Shown here in pieces: positions 12,720 to 55,828 of a stretch of 64,000 bases of DNA. The notes under the pieces were generated by a model. The model searched no databases. It had not been told where the DNA came from and saw only the letters and a list, made by a program, of their open reading frames with translations. Numbering within the stretch: position 1 is the stretch's first letter; every line of letters begins with the position of its first letter. This DNA is from Variovorax sp. V93 (GTDB taxonomy: Bacteria; Pseudomonadota; Gammaproteobacteria; Burkholderiales; Burkholderiaceae_C): NCBI RefSeq assembly GCF_041154485.1, contig NZ_AP028670.1, positions 868,001 through 932,000 of the forward strand, in the 5' to 3' direction. The translations under genes were made by a program, and so were the position numbers.

Positions 12720-13209
12720 AGAATGGTCCGGCGATTTTGCGGATCCTGGGCCATTCGAATCGGCAGAGACGTCGAAATTGACCACCGCCGAAGTGTTTGC
12801 GGTCGATGGCAGTTCAACAACGTCGATGCCGATCAGCATCATCGGCAACCTCTTCCGATCGGCATTGCTCGCCGACGGCAGTGTCTTGGCGCTGGCGGAC
12901 GGCAGCACCACCGCGTTGCGTTTCCACCCGGCGACGTCGACATGGACGACGAGCACCTTCAGGGCAACACGCGCGCTGCTCGGCCTCACAGTCCTGGCAG
13001 ACGGCCGCGTGCTGCTGGCCGGCGGCAGCAACCTGAATACAGCAGAAGTGTTCAACCCCGGCTTCGACGTCTGGACAACAGCGGGACCGATGGCAAATGT
13101 ACGCCGGGCTGCGTCGGCGGTCTTGCTGGATGACGGTCGCGTGCTGGCTGTCGGCGGATTTTCGAACACCGCTGGCGAAGTGGACGCCTCGGAGATTTAC
13201 TTGCCTTGA
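12720..13209 (+). pseudogene. Kelch/galactose-oxidase-like repeat fragment, 5'-truncated
   Basis: An open frame ending at 13209 carries three kelch-like blades: SALLADGSVLALADGST, LTVLADGRVLLAGGSNLNTA with EVFNPGFDVWTTA, and ASAVLLDDGRVLAVGGFSNT. Intact proteins of this type have six or more blades and a signal peptide; here only the last blades remain and the first plausible start (TTG 12778) falls inside the sequence. The 205 bases after it, up to the gudD end, contain no gene I can name. Confidence 0.65.
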
Positions 13210-13414
13210 GCAGTTGCTTGCTGGAGGCGTCATTGGAAGATGACCGAAGGACGCGAGAGACACGCGCGACCATCCAGGTGAGCGATCACCGTGTTGACTG
13301 CTCTGGTGAATCCGCGGGCCGGATCGAATCGCGGGTCGACAAGAACACAGGTCGAACCGGTGCCGAAGCCCAGCGCGGCGGTCCCCACGGCGGGGTCTGC
13401 CGCGGCGAACAGGC

Positions 13415-47884: not shown

Positions 47885-48082
47885 GCGGCCGAGGCACAAC
47901 GCGAAGCCGGTAACCTGATCGTCGTATGTCGCGCAGTTGGGGTCCTGCGTTAGAACTTTTCATGTAGGCACTTGCCGCGACATCGAGAGATCGCGGTCCG
48001 CAGCAGGGATGTCCCGCATGGATTGAGTCCGCCACGGCGATGCATCAAGCGTCTAATGCACCCTCACGCAAGGAGTCGCCAC

Positions 48083-49243
48083 ATGACGGAGACGGACTGC
48101 ATACGCAAAGCCCACTCCTGCGCGGCGGACCCCCGCAAGGCCGCGCAGGAATTCCATGCCATGGTGGCGCAGCCCGGCATGGCGCTGGTGATCTTCTACT
48201 GCTCCAGCGAATACGACCTCGATGCGCTTGCCGACGAGATGAAGCGCCTGTTCGGCGACGTGCCGGTCGCGGGCTGCACCACGGCCGGGGAAATCGGCCC
48301 CGCCGGATTGCGCGACCACAGCCTTGCGGGTGCGAGCTTTCCGGCCAGCCACTTCAGGGTGGCGGCAGGCCAGGTCGAACAGCTGCAGCAGTTCAAGGTG
48401 GAAGCCGGCCAGGACTTCGCCCAGGCGCTGCTGCATGAGCTGCTGGCCGCGGGCCCGCCCGGCGATGCGGACCACAGCTTCGCGCTGCTGCTGATCGACG
48501 GCCTGTCGCTGCGCGAGGAACCCGTCACACGCGCCTTCCAGACCGCACTGGGCAGGCTTCCCCTGCTCGGCGGTTCGGCCGGCGACGGCATGAAGTTCGA
48601 CCAGACCCAGGTCTACTGGAACGGCCGGTTCTGCTCCGACTGCGCGGTGCTGGTGCTGGTGGCGTCGCGCATGCCGTTTCGCATTTTCAAGACGCAGCAC
48701 ATCGTCGCCACCGACGACAGGCTGGTCGTGACCGAGGCGGACGCCGCCTCGCGCACCGTCAAGGAAATCAACGGCCTTCCGGCCAGCCAGGAGTACGCGC
48801 GAATGCTCGGCATCGATGCCTCCGACCTGGACCCTTCGCGCTTCGCGGCCTGGCCGGTGGTGCTGACGATCGGCGGCACCACCTATGTGCGCTCGATCCA
48901 GAAGGCCAATCCGGATGGCAGCCTGACTTTTTTCTGTGCGATCGAGAACGGCCTGGTGCTGCGGGTGGCCAAGGGCGTGGACCTGCTGGAGAACCTGCAG
49001 CAGGCCTTCGCCGGCATCCGCGCCGAGATCGGACCGCCGCAGCTGGTGCTGGGCTACGACTGCATCCTGCGCAAGCTGGAGATCGCACAGAGCAGCGCGA
49101 AGGACCGCATCGGCGAACTCCTGCAGGAGAACAACACGGTCGGCTTCCACACCTATGGCGAGCAGTTCCGCGGCGTGCACGTCAACCAGACGCTGGTCGG
49201 CATCGCATTCGGCACTAACGGCGGGGAGGCCAGCCATGTCTGA
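48083..49243 (+). CDS. FIST-domain sensor protein (NosP-like)
   Basis: A 386-residue FIST protein: FIST_N (VIFYCSSEYDLDALADEMKR, VAGCTTAGEIGPAG, LLGGSAGDGMKFDQTQVYWN) and FIST_C (RIGELLQENNTVGFHTYGEQ, FRGVHVNQTLVGIAFG). No membrane segment. FIST proteins sense small ligands; NosP binds heme and nitric oxide and controls a histidine kinase encoded beside it. The neighbouring kinase and c-di-GMP enzyme match that arrangement; heme binding is only inferred. A GCAAGGAG site precedes the ATG. The 198 bases before it hold no gene. Confidence 0.88.
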   Translation: MTETDCIRKAHSCAADPRKAAQEFHAMVAQPGMALVIFYCSSEYDLDALADEMKRLFGDVPVAGCTTAGEIGPAGLRDHSLAGASFPASHFRVAAGQVEQLQQFKVEAGQDFAQALLHELLAAGPPGDADHSFALLLIDGLSLREEPVTRAFQTALGRLPLLGGSAGDGMKFDQTQVYWNGRFCSDCAVLVLVASRMPFRIFKTQHIVATDDRLVVTEADAASRTVKEINGLPASQEYARMLGIDASDLDPSRFAAWPVVLTIGGTTYVRSIQKANPDGSLTFFCAIENGLVLRVAKGVDLLENLQQAFAGIRAEIGPPQLVLGYDCILRKLEIAQSSAKDRIGELLQENNTVGFHTYGEQFRGVHVNQTLVGIAFGTNGGEASHV

Positions 49244-50333
49244 GACTGCAACGCAGCAGCGCCCCGGCGCGCAGGCGCTGTCCCCGACGGACGAGATCGC
49301 ACGGCTCAACAAGATCATCCAGGCCCTGATGGACCGTGCCGAGCGCAGCGCCAATGCGCAGGGCTCCGACTTCAACCTCTTCCAGACCACCATCATGCTG
49401 GAGGAGCAGGTGCTCAGCCGCACCGCCGAGCTGGAAGCGGCGCTGCGCGAGAACGAGGAGGTCAACCGGGTGCTGCGCAAGACGCAGGCCGACCTGGTGG
49501 CCGCGGCGCGCTCGGCCGGCATGGCCGAGATCGCCACCAACGTGCTGCACAACGTGGGCAACGTGCTCAACAGCGTCAACGTATCCGCCGGGCTGATCCT
49601 CTCCAAGGTTCGCGCGTCCAAGGTGGAAGGGCTCGCGCGCGCGGTGCAATTGATGAACGCGCATGCGGACGACCTGGGCACCTTCCTCGCCTCCGACGCC
49701 AAGGGCAAGATGCTCCCGGGCTACCTGATGCAGCTGACACCGCTCCTGGTGGCGGAGCAGCGCGCCGTCGTCGACGAACTGGTGGCCCTGACCAAGAGCG
49801 TCGACCACATCAAGGAGATCATCGCCGCGCAGCAGGCCCATGCCGGCGCCTCCAGCCTGGTCGAGGCGATACGGATCCACGAGGTGGTCGAGGATGCATT
49901 GCGCATGAACGCTGGTGGCCCGGCGCGCCACCAGGTGGTGATGCAGAGCGACCTCGCACGGATCCCCGAGCTCCCGCTGGACAGGGGCCGCGTGCTGCAG
50001 GTGCTGACGAACCTGGTGCGCAATGCCAGGCAAGCGATGGAGGCGGCGGCGGACGACAGCGCGAAGCTCATGCTGGATGCGGAGATCGTGGAGGACGAGA
50101 CGCTGCGCATCCGCGTGGCGGACACGGGGGTCGGCATCGCCCCGGAAAACCTGACGCGGGTGTTCGTGCACGGGTTCACGACCAAGAAGGACGGCCACGG
50201 CTTCGGCCTGCACAGCGCCGCGATCGCGGCGCGCGAGATGGGCGGCACGCTGGCCGTCCACAGCGACGGGCCCGGCACCGGCGCCACCTTCACGCTCGAA
50301 CTTCCGATCAGAAAGGCGGGACAAACGCCATGA
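49236..50333 (+). CDS. Soluble histidine kinase, partner of the FIST sensor
   Basis: A 365-residue kinase without membrane helices. Coiled coil (about 50-85), then an unusual H-box GMAEIATNVLHNVGNVLNSV with His105 in L-H-N-V-G-N, known from a group of kinases that includes NosP-linked ones. HATPase: NLVRNARQAMEAAADDS, VADTGVGIAPENLTRVFVHG, KDGHGFGLHSAAIAA. It overlaps the FIST gene by eight bases and its product probably receives the FIST signal and phosphorylates the next protein. Confidence 0.9.
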   Translation: MSETATQQRPGAQALSPTDEIARLNKIIQALMDRAERSANAQGSDFNLFQTTIMLEEQVLSRTAELEAALRENEEVNRVLRKTQADLVAAARSAGMAEIATNVLHNVGNVLNSVNVSAGLILSKVRASKVEGLARAVQLMNAHADDLGTFLASDAKGKMLPGYLMQLTPLLVAEQRAVVDELVALTKSVDHIKEIIAAQQAHAGASSLVEAIRIHEVVEDALRMNAGGPARHQVVMQSDLARIPELPLDRGRVLQVLTNLVRNARQAMEAAADDSAKLMLDAEIVEDETLRIRVADTGVGIAPENLTRVFVHGFTTKKDGHGFGLHSAAIAAREMGGTLAVHSDGPGTGATFTLELPIRKAGQTP

Positions 50334-52597
50334 GCAAACCGCAGAACCGCCGCATCCTGCTGGCGGACGACACGCCGGCCATCCACGAGGACTTCCGCAA
50401 GATCCTTCTCCCCGCGGCCGCGGATGCGAACCTGGACGACCTGGAGTCCGCGCTGTTCGGCACCTCGGCCAGGAAAAGCGAAGCGGACTTCGTGCTGGAC
50501 AGCGCCTACCAGGGACAGGAGGCGCTCGCGAAGCTGCGCGAGGCATTGGCGGCCGAGGCGCCCTACGCCATGGCGTTCATCGACATGCGCATGCCCCCGG
50601 GGTGGGACGGCGTCGAGACCATCGAGCAGCTGTGGCTCGAAGACCCGCGCCTGCAGATCGTGATCTGCACGGCCTACGCGGACCAGTCGTGGGTCGAGGT
50701 GTTCGAGCGGCTGGACGCGCGCGACCGCCTGCTGGTGCTCAAGAAGCCCTTCGATCCGATCGAGGTGCGCCAGCTGGCCAGCGCGCTCACCATGAAGTGG
50801 CAGATGACGGAGGACGCCGCCTTCAAGATGAACCAGCTCGAGCAGGCCGTGGAGGAACGCACGCGCGAGCTGTCGGACGCCAACATCATCGTGCAGAACA
50901 GCCCGACCATCCTCTACCGCCTGCGCGGCGAGCCGGCGTTCCCGCTGATCTACATCTCGCACAACATCACCAAGTTCGGCCACGAACCGGCGGCCCTGCT
51001 GGCCAACCCGAACTGGGCGGACGTGCTGATCGACCCGGCCGACCAGCCCGGCGTCGCCGCCGCGATGGCGCGCGTGCTCGAAAAGGACGCCGAAGGCGCC
51101 TCCATCGAATACCGCCTGTGCACCGGCGACGGCGCGCGGCGCTGGGTCGAGAACCGCTACGTTCCGGTGCGCGACAAGGACGGCCGGCTCATCGAGGTCG
51201 AGGGCATCGTCATCGACGTCACCGAGCGCAAGGCGGCGGAGGAGCAACTCGCAAGGCTGGCGCGCACCGACGGGCTCACGGGCCTGGCCAACCGCGCCAC
51301 CCTGGTCGAGCGCCTGCACCAGGCCCACGCCGCGGCACGGCGCGGCTCGGTGCCGTTCGCGCTCCATTGCCTCGACCTGGACCACTTCAAGCCGGTCAAC
51401 GACATGTTCGGCCATCCGGGCGGCGACCTGCTGCTGCGCGAGGTGGCCCTGCGGCTGAAGAACTGCACCCGCGAGACCGACGTGGTGGCGCGGCTGGGCG
51501 GCGACGAGTTCGCCGTGCTGCAAAGCGAGATGACCGATCCGGCCGCCGCGGGCGCGCTGGCCGAGAAGATCCAGCAGGCGCTCGCGCGCCCGTACATGAT
51601 CAACGGCAACCAGGTGCATGCCTCGGCCAGCATCGGCATCTGCCCCTATGCATCCAGCAGCGAGAGCCCGGAGGAAATGCTTGCGCAGGCCGACGTGGCG
51701 CTCTACCGCTCGAAGGAACAGGGGCGCAACCAGTACCACTTCCACTCCGAGGAACTCGACTTCGAAGTGCGCGACCGCGTGGCGCTCGGCGAGGACCTGA
51801 AGCAGGCCATCGAACGCGAGGAGCTGGAGCTCTACTACCAGCCGCAGGTCGAGCTGTCCTCCGGAAAGATCGTGGGCGTGGAGGCGCTGCTGCGCTGGAA
51901 CCATCCCAGGCGCGGCCTGCTCGACGCGGCCGCGTTCGTGCCGATCGCCGAGCGCACCGGCGGCATCGTCGCGCTCGGCCGCTGGGTGCTGGACCAGGCC
52001 TGCAGGCAACTGAGCGTGTGGCGCGAACAGGGCGTGGCACCGCCCGTCGTGGCCATCAACCTGTCGCTCGGGCAGCTCAGGCAAGGCGGCGAGCTGATCC
52101 GCGACGTGACCGAGAGCCTCGCGAAGTGGCAGCTCGATCCCTCCGTGCTGGAGTTCGACGTCACGGAGTCGACGCTGGCCCAGATGACATGGACCCACAA
52201 CGACGTGCTGCCCAGGCTGCGGGCGCTCGGCGTGCGCATTGCGATCGACGACTTCGGCACCGAATATTCCTCGTTCGAATACCTGCGGACCTACCGCGTG
52301 AACCACCTGAAGATCGCGCAGTCGATGCTCAAGCGGGCCATCGACGATCCGGACAGCGCGGCCACGGTTCGCGCCATCATGAATCTCGCGCGCGAAGCGC
52401 GCATCGGCATCATCGTCGAGGGACTGGAGACGCAGACGCAGCTCGCCTTTCTTCAATCGACCGGCTCCACCACGCTGGCGCAGGGCTACTACTTCAGCGA
52501 GGCCGTGATGGCCACCGAGGCCGGCGACCTGCTGCGCTCGGGCACCATGGAGCAGAGCGAGCGCAGCAAGGGCGGGGACCACGGGGCCGCCGCATGA
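50330..52597 (+). CDS. Receiver-PAS-GGDEF-EAL protein
   Basis: A 755-residue protein. Receiver (RRILLADDTPAIHEDFRKIL, AFIDMRMPPGWDG with Asp85, VLKKPFDPIE), coiled coil (about 165-185), PAS (NSPTILYRLRGEPAFPLIYI, RWVENRYVPVRDKDGRL), GGDEF (GGDEF at 390-394, intact) and EAL (Glu518, QPQVELSSGKIVGVEALLRW). In the EAL domain the common L-K-I-D reads LKIAQ (Ala663), and DDFGTG is DDFGTE; other metal ligands look present. It may make or degrade c-di-GMP. The receiver is longer than usual. It is the natural target of the preceding kinase. Confidence 0.92.
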   Translation: MSKPQNRRILLADDTPAIHEDFRKILLPAAADANLDDLESALFGTSARKSEADFVLDSAYQGQEALAKLREALAAEAPYAMAFIDMRMPPGWDGVETIEQLWLEDPRLQIVICTAYADQSWVEVFERLDARDRLLVLKKPFDPIEVRQLASALTMKWQMTEDAAFKMNQLEQAVEERTRELSDANIIVQNSPTILYRLRGEPAFPLIYISHNITKFGHEPAALLANPNWADVLIDPADQPGVAAAMARVLEKDAEGASIEYRLCTGDGARRWVENRYVPVRDKDGRLIEVEGIVIDVTERKAAEEQLARLARTDGLTGLANRATLVERLHQAHAAARRGSVPFALHCLDLDHFKPVNDMFGHPGGDLLLREVALRLKNCTRETDVVARLGGDEFAVLQSEMTDPAAAGALAEKIQQALARPYMINGNQVHASASIGICPYASSSESPEEMLAQADVALYRSKEQGRNQYHFHSEELDFEVRDRVALGEDLKQAIEREELELYYQPQVELSSGKIVGVEALLRWNHPRRGLLDAAAFVPIAERTGGIVALGRWVLDQACRQLSVWREQGVAPPVVAINLSLGQLRQGGELIRDVTESLAKWQLDPSVLEFDVTESTLAQMTWTHNDVLPRLRALGVRIAIDDFGTEYSSFEYLRTYRVNHLKIAQSMLKRAIDDPDSAATVRAIMNLAREARIGIIVEGLETQTQLAFLQSTGSTTLAQGYYFSEAVMATEAGDLLRSGTMEQSERSKGGDHGAAA

Positions 52598-53580
52598 AAA
52601 AAGCACTTCTGCTGCTTGTCGCGGCCTGGGGCCTCGCGGCACCGGCCGTGCATGCCGAGCCCGTCGTGCTCTCGCTGGTGCACGCCGCCGCGATCACGCA
52701 CCCGGCCCATCTGGCGGCGCTGCAGTTCGCCAAGCGGGTCGAGGAGCGCACCCACGGGCAGGTCCGCACCGAGATCTTTCCCGCTTCCCAGCTCGGCAGC
52801 GAGAACGAACTGCTGCAGAAAGTCAGGCTGGGCGCGATCGACATGGACGTGACCTCGATGAACTACCTCATCAAGTACGAGAAGACGTTCTCCGTCGTCG
52901 TCATGCCGTATCTCTTCGACAGCTATGCGCACGCCCACCGCGTGCTCGATGGCCCGGCCATGAACTGGCTCGCGCCGCTGGCCGAGAAGCAGGGCTTCGT
53001 CATCCTGTCCAACTGGGAATGGGGATTCCGCAACATCACCAACAACAAGCGCCCGATCAACGTGCCCGAGGACGTGAGAGGCCTCAGGGTGCGCGTTCCG
53101 CCCGTCGCGGAACTCGAGGCCACGATGGAAGCGCTGGGCGCCCAGGTCAGCAAGGTCGGCTTCAAGGAACTTCCCCAGGCGCTGTCGCAGGGCCTGGTCG
53201 ACGGCCAGGAGAACCCGCTCAACGTCATCTACTACAACAAGTTGTACGAGGTGCAGAAGCACCTCGCCCTGACCCGCCATGTGTACTACAACACGCTCCA
53301 CCTCATGAGCACCAGGACCTGGGCGAAGCTCACGCCGGCCGAGCAGGCGATCGTGCGTGAAGAGAGCAAGGCGGCGGGCGACGGCATGCGCAGGAAGATC
53401 ATTGCCGAAGAGGAGGAGCTGATCGCAAAGATGATTGCCGCCGGCGTGAAGGTCACGCGCCCCGACCCGGCGCCGTTCCGCGCGGCCACGCAGGGCGCCC
53501 GGGAGGAGATCAGGCGCTTCGCGGGCGACGAGAACGTGCGCACGTTCCTGAAGATGGTCGACGCAGAGCGAAGGCAGTGA
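52594..53580 (+). CDS. TRAP-type DctP solute receptor, orphan
   Basis: A 328-residue periplasmic receptor: signal peptide MKKALLLLVAAWGLAAPAVH, then the DctP pattern QFAKRVEERTHGQVRTEIFP, SQLGSENELLQKVRLGAIDM, GFRNITNNKRPINVPEDVRG, LRVRVPPVAELEATMEALGA and GLVDGQENPLNVIYYNKLYE. There is no DctQ or DctM in the window. It overlaps the GGDEF-EAL gene by four bases and precedes a membrane GGDEF-EAL gene, so it may feed a ligand signal to that protein rather than a transporter. Confidence 0.92.
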   Translation: MKKALLLLVAAWGLAAPAVHAEPVVLSLVHAAAITHPAHLAALQFAKRVEERTHGQVRTEIFPASQLGSENELLQKVRLGAIDMDVTSMNYLIKYEKTFSVVVMPYLFDSYAHAHRVLDGPAMNWLAPLAEKQGFVILSNWEWGFRNITNNKRPINVPEDVRGLRVRVPPVAELEATMEALGAQVSKVGFKELPQALSQGLVDGQENPLNVIYYNKLYEVQKHLALTRHVYYNTLHLMSTRTWAKLTPAEQAIVREESKAAGDGMRRKIIAEEEELIAKMIAAGVKVTRPDPAPFRAATQGAREEIRRFAGDENVRTFLKMVDAERRQ

Positions 53581-53656
53581 CGCATCTCTCCAGCAGCGAC
53601 TTGGGAGCGAGCCGCAATTGATCAAATTCCCGATCGACTTCTCCTGGGGGAGAAGA

Positions 53657-55828
53657 ATGCGCAGCCTGCGGGTGGAGATCGCACTGGGATTCGGCGTCCT
53701 CATTGTGCTGATGCTCGCACTGGGCGTGTCCTTCTATCTGAGCGAACAGCGTTCCGCGGCGGCCATCGACAAGCTGCTGAACAGCGACAACCGGATGGCG
53801 GACCTGAGCCTGCGCAGTTCGCTGGCGATGTACAAGGCCCGCGACGCCGAGAACGAACTCCTGCTGTCCGCGGACCGGCTCGGGGTGGCGCAGGCAAGCG
53901 CGCTCTCCCTGCCGGCCATGCAGAACCATTTGCTGGACATGCGGGAGTACCTTGCCAGCCTTCGGATCCTCTCGACGGATCCGGAATTCAGGGACCGGGT
54001 CGACCGGATCGAGGCCCAGACCCGGCAGTACGAGGACGGATTCCTCGCGTTCATCGCGCAGCATGGCAAGGAGGACTCCCCGGGCTCGGCCCACGCGCTT
54101 CGCCAAGGCTACGTCGACACGGCCGTCGCCATCGAGTCCTCGGTGGAGGCACTGCACACCGCGGCGACCAAGCGCGCGCTCCAGACGCGCAGCGATGTCG
54201 AACGCGCCGCCAGGTTGTCGCGCTGGGCCGCCATCGCCATGGTCGTCCTGGCGACCGTTCTGGGCGTGGTGGTCGCGAGCATCGTCTCGCAACGCATCAC
54301 GGGCTCCATCGCGCAGCTCATCGCCTTTTCCCGGCGTGTGGCCGCGGGAGACCTCGGTGCCAGGGCGCCGCACGGCCGCGCGGATGAATTCGGCATCCTC
54401 GCGAACGCGATGAACCAGATGGCGGAGTCGATCGAGAATTCCAATGCGCTGCTGGAGAGCAGCGCCGACACCCTGAAGCACCAGGCCACCCACGACGTAC
54501 TGACGGGGCTGCCGAACCGCGCGCTGCTGGAGGATCGTCTCCGGCAAGCCATCTCGTACGCCGATCGATACGGCCGGCTGATGACGGTGGTGTTCATCAA
54601 CCTCGACGGCTTCAAGCGGGTCAACGACAGCCTGGGCCGCAAGGCCGGCGACGAATTGCTGAAGGTCATGGCCGGACGCATGACCCGGTGCCTGCGCAGC
54701 GTGGACACGGTGGTGCGGACGGGCGGCGACGAATTCGTGATCCTTCTGTACGACCAGCCCGGGGACGGAACGGAGGTCGCGCCGGCCCTGCAAAGGCTGC
54801 TCGAGACCATTGCGCAGCCCGTCGAGATCGACGGCCAGGGGGTCCAGGTCACGGCCAGCCTGGGCGTGGCCACCTATCCTGCGGACGGCGCCGATGCCGA
54901 CGCCTTGCTCATGAGCGCCGATGCCGCGATGTCCCGCGCCAAGGATTCGGGGCGCAACAATTTCCAGTTCTATGCGGCCGAGATGAACGGTGCGATCCGC
55001 GACAGGCTCGCCCTGTGCGAAGGACTGCGCCATGCCATCGCGCGGGGCGAGTTCCACCTGCTGTACCAGCCCCAGGTGGAGATGGGATCGGGCCGGGTGA
55101 CGGGCGTGGAGGCACTGATCCGCTGGCAGCATTCCGAGCGCGGCCTGGTCTCCCCGGTGGAATTCATTCCCCTCGCGGAGGAGACCGGCCTCATCGTTCC
55201 CATCGGCGAATGGGCGCTGCGCACCGCCTGCTTCCAGAACAAAGCCTGGCAGGACGCGGGCGTGCCGGCCTTCAGCGTTTCGGTCAACGTGTCCGCACGG
55301 CAGTTCAGGGAACGGACCCTGATCGAGCAAGTCGCACAGGCGCTCGGGGACAGCGGGCTCGACGCCCGGTTCCTGGAGCTGGAGCTCACCGAAAGCATGG
55401 TCATGGAAGACCTCGAGAAGGCCCTGCAATCGATGAAGGCCCTGCAGGCGATGGGCGTGCAGTTCTCCATCGACGATTTCGGCACCGGCTATTCCAGCCT
55501 GAGCGCGCTCAAGCGCTTTCCCATTGCCCGGCTGAAGATCGATCGCGCCTTCGTGCGCGACATTCCCGGCGACGAAGACGACAAGGCCATCGCCAAGGCC
55601 ATCATTTCGCTGGGGCACGAGCTCAACCTCAGGGTCATTGCCGAAGGCGTCGAGACCGAGCAACAGCGGGACTTCCTGCGCGCCCACGATTGCGACGAGA
55701 TGCAGGGCTATCTCTTCAGCCGGCCCGTGCCGCCCGCCGAGCTTGCGGCCCTGGTCAAGGCACGCTCGGGCATGGCGACAGCAGCCGGCCCGTCCGATGC
55801 GCGCCCGAGGCGGATGGCGGCACGCTGA
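53657..55828 (+). CDS. Membrane GGDEF-EAL protein with periplasmic sensor domain
   Basis: A 723-residue protein. Start ATG 53657 is chosen over TTG 53618 because GGGGGAG lies just before it. Two helices (about 8-28 and 190-212) border a helical periplasmic domain; HAMP (about 213-265); GGDEF intact at 356-360 (VVRTGGDEFVILLYDQ); EAL at 485 (VTGVEALIRWQHSERGL), with NVSARQF, ELTESMV, DDFGTGYSSL, LKIDRAFVRD and AEGVETE all present. So both c-di-GMP synthesis and breakdown are possible. The four-helix-type outer domain could meet the DctP protein. It converges with the SDR gene. Confidence 0.93.
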   Translation: MRSLRVEIALGFGVLIVLMLALGVSFYLSEQRSAAAIDKLLNSDNRMADLSLRSSLAMYKARDAENELLLSADRLGVAQASALSLPAMQNHLLDMREYLASLRILSTDPEFRDRVDRIEAQTRQYEDGFLAFIAQHGKEDSPGSAHALRQGYVDTAVAIESSVEALHTAATKRALQTRSDVERAARLSRWAAIAMVVLATVLGVVVASIVSQRITGSIAQLIAFSRRVAAGDLGARAPHGRADEFGILANAMNQMAESIENSNALLESSADTLKHQATHDVLTGLPNRALLEDRLRQAISYADRYGRLMTVVFINLDGFKRVNDSLGRKAGDELLKVMAGRMTRCLRSVDTVVRTGGDEFVILLYDQPGDGTEVAPALQRLLETIAQPVEIDGQGVQVTASLGVATYPADGADADALLMSADAAMSRAKDSGRNNFQFYAAEMNGAIRDRLALCEGLRHAIARGEFHLLYQPQVEMGSGRVTGVEALIRWQHSERGLVSPVEFIPLAEETGLIVPIGEWALRTACFQNKAWQDAGVPAFSVSVNVSARQFRERTLIEQVAQALGDSGLDARFLELELTESMVMEDLEKALQSMKALQAMGVQFSIDDFGTGYSSLSALKRFPIARLKIDRAFVRDIPGDEDDKAIAKAIISLGHELNLRVIAEGVETEQQRDFLRAHDCDEMQGYLFSRPVPPAELAALVKARSGMATAAGPSDARPRRMAAR

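Follow-up and report, generated by a model that had tools for sequence, protein, structure and literature searches.

A five-gene operon of the soil bacterium Variovorax sp. V93 is probably a two-input control unit for cyclic di-GMP (c-di-GMP), in which DctP, a binding protein of the tripartite ATP-independent periplasmic (TRAP) type, serves as co-receptor of a membrane enzyme in the way that NspS serves MbaA. The operon lies in a window of 64,000 nucleotides (contig NZ_AP028670.1, positions 868,001 to 932,000 of the forward strand) of a 6.74 Mb genome in two contigs, whose closest named relatives are Variovorax. The proposal is built on what was observed: gene order, its conservation, the lack of DctQM genes nearby, purifying selection and catalytic motifs. 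In the cytoplasm, NosP would sense nitric oxide (NO), or heme, and set the kinase, which would phosphorylate the soluble REC-PAS-GGDEF-EAL protein, a logic expected from membership of the NosP family. In the periplasm, DctP, having left transport, would bind a small sugar acid, for which the best guess is a uronate or keto-deoxyuronate derived from polyuronates of plants or microbes. On the membrane HAMP-GGDEF-EAL protein, the predicted docking site of liganded DctP is the helical domain in the periplasm; through HAMP, docking would shift the balance of cyclase and phosphodiesterase activities. By analogy, the closed form of DctP might tentatively be assigned to the cyclase state. The features are as follows.

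47951..48082, + strand: operon leader with conserved blocks TAGAACTTTTCATGTA, GGGATGTCCCGCATGG and GCGTCTAATG (alignment of 14 leaders)
48083..49243, + strand: nosP, FIST/FIST_C protein predicted to sense NO, 386 aa (PF08495, PF10442, NCBIfam NosP equivalog)
49236..50333, + strand: soluble histidine kinase, 365 aa (PF02518 HATPase_c; HNVGN at 105; no transmembrane (TM) segment by hydropathy)
50330..52597, + strand: soluble REC-PAS-GGDEF-EAL response regulator, 755 aa (Pfam Response_reg, PAS, GGDEF and EAL; motifs; no TM segment)
52594..53580, + strand: orphan dctP, TRAP-type binding protein, 328 aa, with a signal-peptide-like N-terminus (PF03480, TIGR00787)
53618..55828, + strand: membrane HAMP-GGDEF-EAL protein, 736 aa from TTG, 723 aa from ATG 53657
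53735..54229, + strand: periplasmic helical sensor domain of that protein, residues ~40-204, proposed docking site of DctP (structure model)

Open reading frames and domain searches establish the five genes as one array on the + strand. An earlier note on this DNA had described five genes in one direction with the first four overlapping, and the overlaps are 8 bases between nosP and the kinase gene, 4 between kinase and regulator, and 4 between regulator and dctP. The gap of 76 bases that the same note placed before the fifth gene has been corrected. Gene 5 probably starts at the in-frame TTG 53618, 39 bases 5' of ATG 53657, leaving 37 bases after dctP, since, of the 11 other Variovorax loci with dctP, 6 have ACG, GCG or TCG in place of the ATG and 10 keep the TTG, the exception being G230.

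DctP without transporter genes beside it

Membership of DctP in its family is plain. PF03480 is its sole Pfam match (276 bits), and it scores 241.7 with TIGR00787 against a cut-off of 175. Its structure model has a pLDDT of 90.9 (33 sequences), and a comparison with solved structures gave 94 matches; among the 60 listed, nearly all are named TRAP, DctP or SiaP. The protein is 99% identical to a DctP of Variovorax beijingensis T529.

The genome has 20 DctP matches, all above cut-off, 15 of which lie within 2.8 kb of a DctM gene, measured from the first base of DctP to the centre of DctM; five do not, the window DctP included. There are 16 DctM matches, 15 of them above cut-off; after two were joined as one gene and the one below cut-off was dropped, 14 remained, each with another DctP within about 2.8 kb. 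The nearest to the window dctP is on the same contig at a distance of about 303 kb, and no DctM match was found in the Variovorax loci L039-L044, L103 and L104. The absence of DctQM from the operon, already asserted from the sequence of the window, is thereby borne out. A TRAP transporter would include a cognate DctQ and DctM, and neither was assigned to this DctP (DctQ was searched in this genome only). Standing without transporter genes and always beside a c-di-GMP membrane enzyme, as described below, DctP seems to inform the cell of an external chemical and not to import it.

Alternatively, DctP could still be a transport protein that loads a DctQM encoded elsewhere, its place in the operon serving only to co-regulate uptake with c-di-GMP. 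This is improbable. All the fold elements expected of a binding protein are indeed in the DctP model, the protein keeps many residues that do not vary among transport relatives, R146, R167 and N207 among them, and DctM genes are numerous in the genome. Against this, each DctM above cut-off already has another DctP nearby, no DctM appears in the Variovorax loci named above, dctP is followed by the receptor gene instead of a permease gene in 11 of 11 genomes, all 12 orphan DctPs are changed at positions that are nearly invariant in transport relatives, and a second orphan DctP of the genome behaves alike. Service to a distant DctQM, anticipated in the earlier note as a possible refutation, therefore finds no support, and the sharing of a permease is still compatible with the data.

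Mature DctP has a mean ratio of nonsynonymous to synonymous change (dN/dS) of about 0.125 across 12 Variovorax loci (66 pairs), and is under purifying selection. Its 64 relatives comprise six from Variovorax, one from a metagenome-assembled genome (MAG; locus L045) and 57 others at 43-60% identity. DctM lies within 3 kb downstream in 51 of the 57, according to a recount with three DctM queries. Three of the remaining six are at contig ends (L058, L067, L097); the other three (L085, L088, L093) have no GGDEF or EAL match in spite of at least 1.8 kb of room free of DctM. L085 and L088 are from Desulfobacterales and adjoin apparent lipoprotein genes.

The loci of the 57 relatives point to a substrate. 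KduI is matched in 25 of them, and in 19 of the 35 that extend to at least 12 kb; KduD-like, KdgK-like and Eda-like matches occur in 32, 17 and 16, respectively. When examples were checked against NCBIfam, KduI (3 of 3), KduD (2 of 2) and Eda (1 of 1) were confirmed, and both KdgK examples fell below their cut-offs. KduI was found in none of the 14 TRAP stretches of the V93 genome (16.5-19 kb each), a genome that may have no kduI. Because transport relatives are often near kduI, uronates or keto-deoxyuronates are probably what the family transports. The window DctP shares the sequence family and DctP fold of this kduI-kduD branch of TRAP transporters, and differs in having no adjoining DctM and in having lost, throughout its subfamily, residues that do not vary among the transport relatives. 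The residues R146, R167 and N207 that it retains resemble ligand residues of SiaP.

Gene content of the Variovorax operons and the receptor

The receptor sensor half, DctP and NosP were searched in 101 Variovorax genomes with limits of E 1e-6, 1e-85 and 1e-60, respectively. The sensor half is present in 15 genomes (16 places), DctP in 13 and NosP in 8. DctP is at least 89% identical in 11 of the 13; in the other two, G163 and G200, it is only 54-55% identical and has DctM adjoining. In 11 of 11 genomes carrying the former type, and also on the SPNA7 plasmid, dctP is directly upstream of the receptor gene, so the order proposed from the window is conserved in relatives, as is the adjoining of a binding-protein gene and a membrane GGDEF-EAL gene known from NspS and MbaA. 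All 11 DctP and all 8 NosP matches are at receptor loci, and none was found away from the receptor within these limits.

Eighteen receptor loci, from Variovorax genomes and two named plasmids, take four forms. The trio of nosP, kinase and regulator genes stands with dctP and receptor in eight (window, G153, G181, G172, G152, G170, G150, SPNA7). Four have dctP and receptor without the trio (G176, G232, G230, G179), two have trio and receptor without dctP (2u118, G182a), and four have the receptor alone (G187, G180, G182b, G217). The receptor is the element common to all forms. In G180 (L156) its gene is broken into several frames, and in G217 a second receptor (G217:C2:2441139-2442130) is split over two.

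The junctions are informative. The leader is found straight before dctP in G232, G230 and G179, which have no nosP, and in G176 it precedes dctP by another junction, with the first codons of nosP kept. In G187 the leader is followed by a remnant of dctP and then by the receptor. dctP is gone by a clean deletion in 2u118, and codons resembling its signal peptide remain in G182a. From these junctions and remnants the five-gene order is old in this clade. One or two losses removed the trio and spared dctP, and three lineages lost dctP and retained the receptor; in G217 and G182b the absence of dctP may be original. A tree of the catalytic domain needs three changes of dctP state and two of nosP state, and one of the periplasmic domain four and three, with several weak branches in these trees. 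A count of two or more losses of the trio was dropped, since the catalytic-domain tree needs only two nosP-state changes, outgroup included, and one leader junction could derive from the other. Likewise, the five-gene order was rejected as a conserved unit because its parts have been lost separately. The idea that two signals meet in one operon is therefore sustained in some lineages only; nosP is absent from 4 of the 11 genomes with dctP, and dctP from two loci with the trio. Such a deletion series is what would be expected if two inputs depended on one receptor, which is a correlative argument.

It could also be held that dctP is a recent chance insertion with no common function, kept by co-transcription in a small clade. 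When 399 genomes of the family were searched with at most five candidates scored per genome, DctP was matched at E 1e-90 or better in only two, both Variovorax, and in one MAG. The deletions that removed nosP nevertheless spared the pair of dctP and receptor, at the MAG locus L045 a GGDEF-EAL gene again adjoins the gene of a DctP that shares the derived residues, and the second pair described below is widespread and retains its DctP beside the sensor also where the output is a different one. Chance insertion is thus very improbable.

The receptor itself has HAMP, GGDEF and EAL domains by Pfam and TM segments at about residues 21-39 and 205-223. Like enzymes of the MbaA kind it has GGDEF and EAL domains, and its catalytic motifs are present (GGDEF, RxxD, EAL, DDFGTGYSS, LKI, EGVET). 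Its best match among solved structures is a 'Motility regulator' (4rnh), which is MorA. Over 12 Variovorax loci dN/dS is 0.184 for the catalytic and 0.211 for the periplasmic part. The periplasmic domain, described at the outset as helical, is modeled with helices at 10-84, 89-118, 122-149 and 155-242; with a pLDDT of 63.8 from seven sequences, an all-helical fold is suggested at low confidence. No Pfam family other than HAMP is above cut-off in the sensor domain, and a profile of it gave 24 matches to solved structures up to E = 1. These matches, to NarQ, HAMP constructs and chemotaxis or rhodopsin transducers, are confined to the TM2/HAMP stretch. In a Foldseek search of the periplasmic model no match reached E 0.001. 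The leading ones, which are weak, were to NarQ and PcaY_PP, with LytSN from the XylFII-LytSN complex (5xsj_L, E 0.11) at rank 10 and Tsr at rank 13. The modeled fold would suit docking of a binding protein and direct binding of a ligand equally.

Of 150 genomes of the family, 112 match the sensor domain at E 0.001 or better; the matches outside its own genome are mostly weak, and many start only at residue 140. The two best such loci (G044, 38%; G052, 31%) have no DctP, the contig of G044 ending soon upstream.

The membrane protein might sense a ligand of its own directly through the helical domain, DctP being a passenger or having another partner. In favor of this, several lineages have retained the receptor in the absence of dctP, the direct sensors NarQ, PcaY_PP and Tsr are among its best fold matches, and periplasmic helix 1 is conserved also in receptors that lack dctP. 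Against it, DctP is under purifying selection, it has been retained with the receptor where nosP was lost, it was not found apart from the receptor, and the fold list also contains LytSN, taken from a complex with a binding protein. On this evidence direct sensing seems unlikely.

Rates of change give weak support to a coupling of DctP and receptor. Among dctP-bearing loci, periplasmic dN is 1.27 times catalytic dN (range 0.19-2.46); measured against receptors lacking dctP the ratio is 1.89 for 2u118, 1.26 for G187, 2.43 for G182a, 3.20 for G182b and 3.61 for G217. Counts of private changes in the periplasmic domain were 22-23 in 2u118 against 6 in SPNA7 and 3 in G152 (Fisher p 0.15 and 0.03), 19 in G182a against 8 in G176 (p 0.004) and 14 against 13 in G150 (p 0.26), and 9 against 7 for G187 (p 0.56). 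G150, which bears dctP, has 15 against 5 in G176 (p 0.06). A general rule that loss of dctP speeds the periplasmic domain was not upheld by these counts.

The co-receptor proposal has to be set against several points that speak the other way. The relative-rate test is mixed, G187 being no faster and dctP-bearing G150 being itself fast, and a single event may have removed the trio. Since 2u118, G182 (with two copies), G187 and G217 have a receptor but no dctP, as has G180 with a broken one, the receptor can work without DctP or is decaying in those lineages. Its helical fold is closer to the direct ligand sensors NarQ and PcaY_PP than to LytSN. With respect to the ligand, the KduI control comes from a single genome, possibly without any kduI, and all 12 orphans have changes, E75Q, Q76K, E171V and N232Y among them, where 47-49 of 49 transport relatives are invariant; the ligand may accordingly be shifted relative to theirs. 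The DctP of L045 (77% identity), which has the same four changes, precedes on its short contig a homologue of the REC-PAS-GGDEF-EAL protein and not the membrane receptor. Finally, the contact between DctP and receptor, the ligand and the effect on c-di-GMP are predictions from sequence.

L045 belongs to a Burkholderiaceae MAG, and the gene downstream of its dctP is a 42% homologue of the soluble regulator. A search of MAG G495 for the remaining operon genes gave NosP and kinase matches on other short contigs.

A second pair of DctP and sensor

The earlier note had suggested a search for dctP genes adjoining GGDEF-EAL genes without dctQM. The same genome has a second, unrelated and conserved pair of this kind.

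G000:C1:737019-740942 (L143 4020-7945): second pair, DctP and membrane dCache-like-PAS-GGDEF-EAL protein

This DctP (G000:C1:737019-737975) scores 45.7 bits with PF03480 against a cut-off of 23.4, and BLASTP gave no significant alignment between it and the window DctP. By the gene caller's starts it ends 8 bases before the gene of a 985-residue protein with two TM segments, PAS, GGDEF and EAL; dCache is below its cut-off (21.2 vs 45). The gene of a dCache protein (L143 7975 on) follows the pair, with a GGDEF domain beyond (L244 ~12817-13314).

The N-terminal 330 residues of the second sensor are matched in 41 of the 101 Variovorax genomes, with the second DctP directly upstream in 41 of 41 and 11-41 bases between the matched stretches; the catalytic half was read in the V93 genome only. 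G211 and G215 have weak matches to the second DctP without the sensor. A search of the 399 family genomes gave matches to the second DctP in 97, 93 of them outside Variovorax at E 1e-40 or better, and some of the matches outside the genus (29-38% identity) are probably transport proteins. At the 28 best loci outside the genus (11 genera) the N-terminal part of the sensor is directly downstream of DctP in all, and no DctM match lies within their 1.5-kb flanks.

Twenty of these 28 loci were read further. Sensor, GGDEF and EAL share one frame in 15 (the frame of L268 takes in the sensor match only in part), one is cut by a contig end after GGDEF, and four have instead the output of a hybrid kinase, with PAS, HisKA, HATPase_c and receiver domains, L265, L266 and L269 in one genus and L267 in another.

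L265 231-3455: hybrid-kinase pair
L266 2508-5159: hybrid-kinase pair
L267 2463-5396: hybrid-kinase pair
L269 988-3498: hybrid-kinase pair

The statement that the second receptor is always a GGDEF-EAL protein was withdrawn on account of these four. Across these loci the output varies, and the second DctP goes with the sensor half. A co-receptor is predicted to do exactly that, and the odds that the window DctP is one are therefore raised.

Related systems, the NosP branch and the leader

Excerpts from the literature on Vibrio cholerae, and also on Sinorhizobium meliloti, describe a periplasmic binding protein, NspS, that gates the membrane GGDEF-EAL enzyme MbaA (PMC8967002; PMC9993111); MbaA itself carries SGDEF and EVL (excerpt, PMC8967002). 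The window pair resembles this system in that a binding-protein gene stands beside a membrane GGDEF-EAL gene. It differs in that NspS binds polyamines and the window protein is of the TRAP type (PF03480), and in that the window operon also has a NosP branch. No homology to NspS is indicated, on a Pfam basis without direct comparison, PF03480 being the only family matched. ArtI with STM1987 is another binding protein that gates a c-di-GMP enzyme, according to part of one account (PMC8846402). The DctB-DctS-DctA system of Bacillus subtilis, as partly described, has an accessory co-receptor for C4-dicarboxylates that acts with a membrane sensor (PMC6978683); the pairing resembles that proposed here, with a transporter and a sensor kinase as partners in place of a GGDEF-EAL enzyme.

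XylFII binds sugars, and LytS is a kinase. The likeness to this pair is the weak fold match of the receptor's helical domain to LytSN, solved in complex with XylFII; binding-protein family and output are different. DctB is a protein of the DctP family. Activation of receptors by binding proteins has been called general and widespread, with few systems so switched characterised (excerpts of PMC9602780). In the literature searched, outside which most subscription papers fell, no TRAP-type protein acting on a c-di-GMP enzyme was found. Binding proteins that gate c-di-GMP enzymes are already known, and the new part is the TRAP-type pairing.

A broader proposal seems to us about equally likely to be right or wrong. 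TRAP-type DctPs that have left transport would form a general class of periplasmic co-receptors of membrane signalling enzymes, chiefly those of c-di-GMP, arisen at least twice from unrelated DctP branches, once with the helical/HAMP receptor and once with a PAS receptor, weakly dCache-like, of 11 or more further Burkholderiaceae genera; there the pair of DctP and sensor would also drive hybrid kinases. The window pair would then report a uronate-type plant signal beside the NO input. If DctP and receptor are truly coupled, orphan dctP genes of this kind are predicted sensors whose ligands could be found with the purified binding protein, a direct route to the inputs of c-di-GMP networks. The Variovorax deletion series and the swap of output in the second pair offer ready-made tests.

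With respect to genes 1-3, NosP scores 462.6 bits against the curated NCBIfam equivalog cut-off of 450, and its gene overlaps those of a soluble kinase and a response regulator of c-di-GMP type, as in operons of the NosP family. The first reading of the three as a NosP-type arrangement holds: they are a known kind of NO-sensing operon by sequence, and NO sensing is predicted. NosP had no match among solved structures up to E = 1. The soluble regulator has REC, GGDEF with RxxD, and EAL motifs, with one EAL loop altered (DDFGTEYSS). Its closest parallels, known here from parts of the sources, are NosP-NahK-NarR of Legionella pneumophila and NosP-NosK-NosR of Burkholderia, in which a FIST sensor, a kinase and a regulator with c-di-GMP-type output are encoded together (PMC8846402; PMC12570481; PMC8738867). 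In the same excerpts the NosR of Burkholderia has a degenerate HD-GYP output, unlike the window regulator, and the window operon differs from both systems in extending into dctP and a second, membrane GGDEF-EAL gene.

The leader (47951-48082) is a probable promoter or regulatory region, judged by its conserved blocks; a scan of it for consensus promoters found none. A palindrome, GGGATATCCC, is present in the leaders of G232, G230, G179 and G187, and the window version is GGGATGTCCC; it is a possible regulator site.

Other orphan dctP genes were noted in this genome. Two stand in tandem at G000:C2:736801-739163 (L141) with a small gene between them that looks, by its sequence, like one for a dehydroquinase. 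Another, at G000:C2:1216487 (L142 4428-5441), is near genes for a LuxR-type response regulator and a PLD-domain protein and possibly represents a further sensory use.

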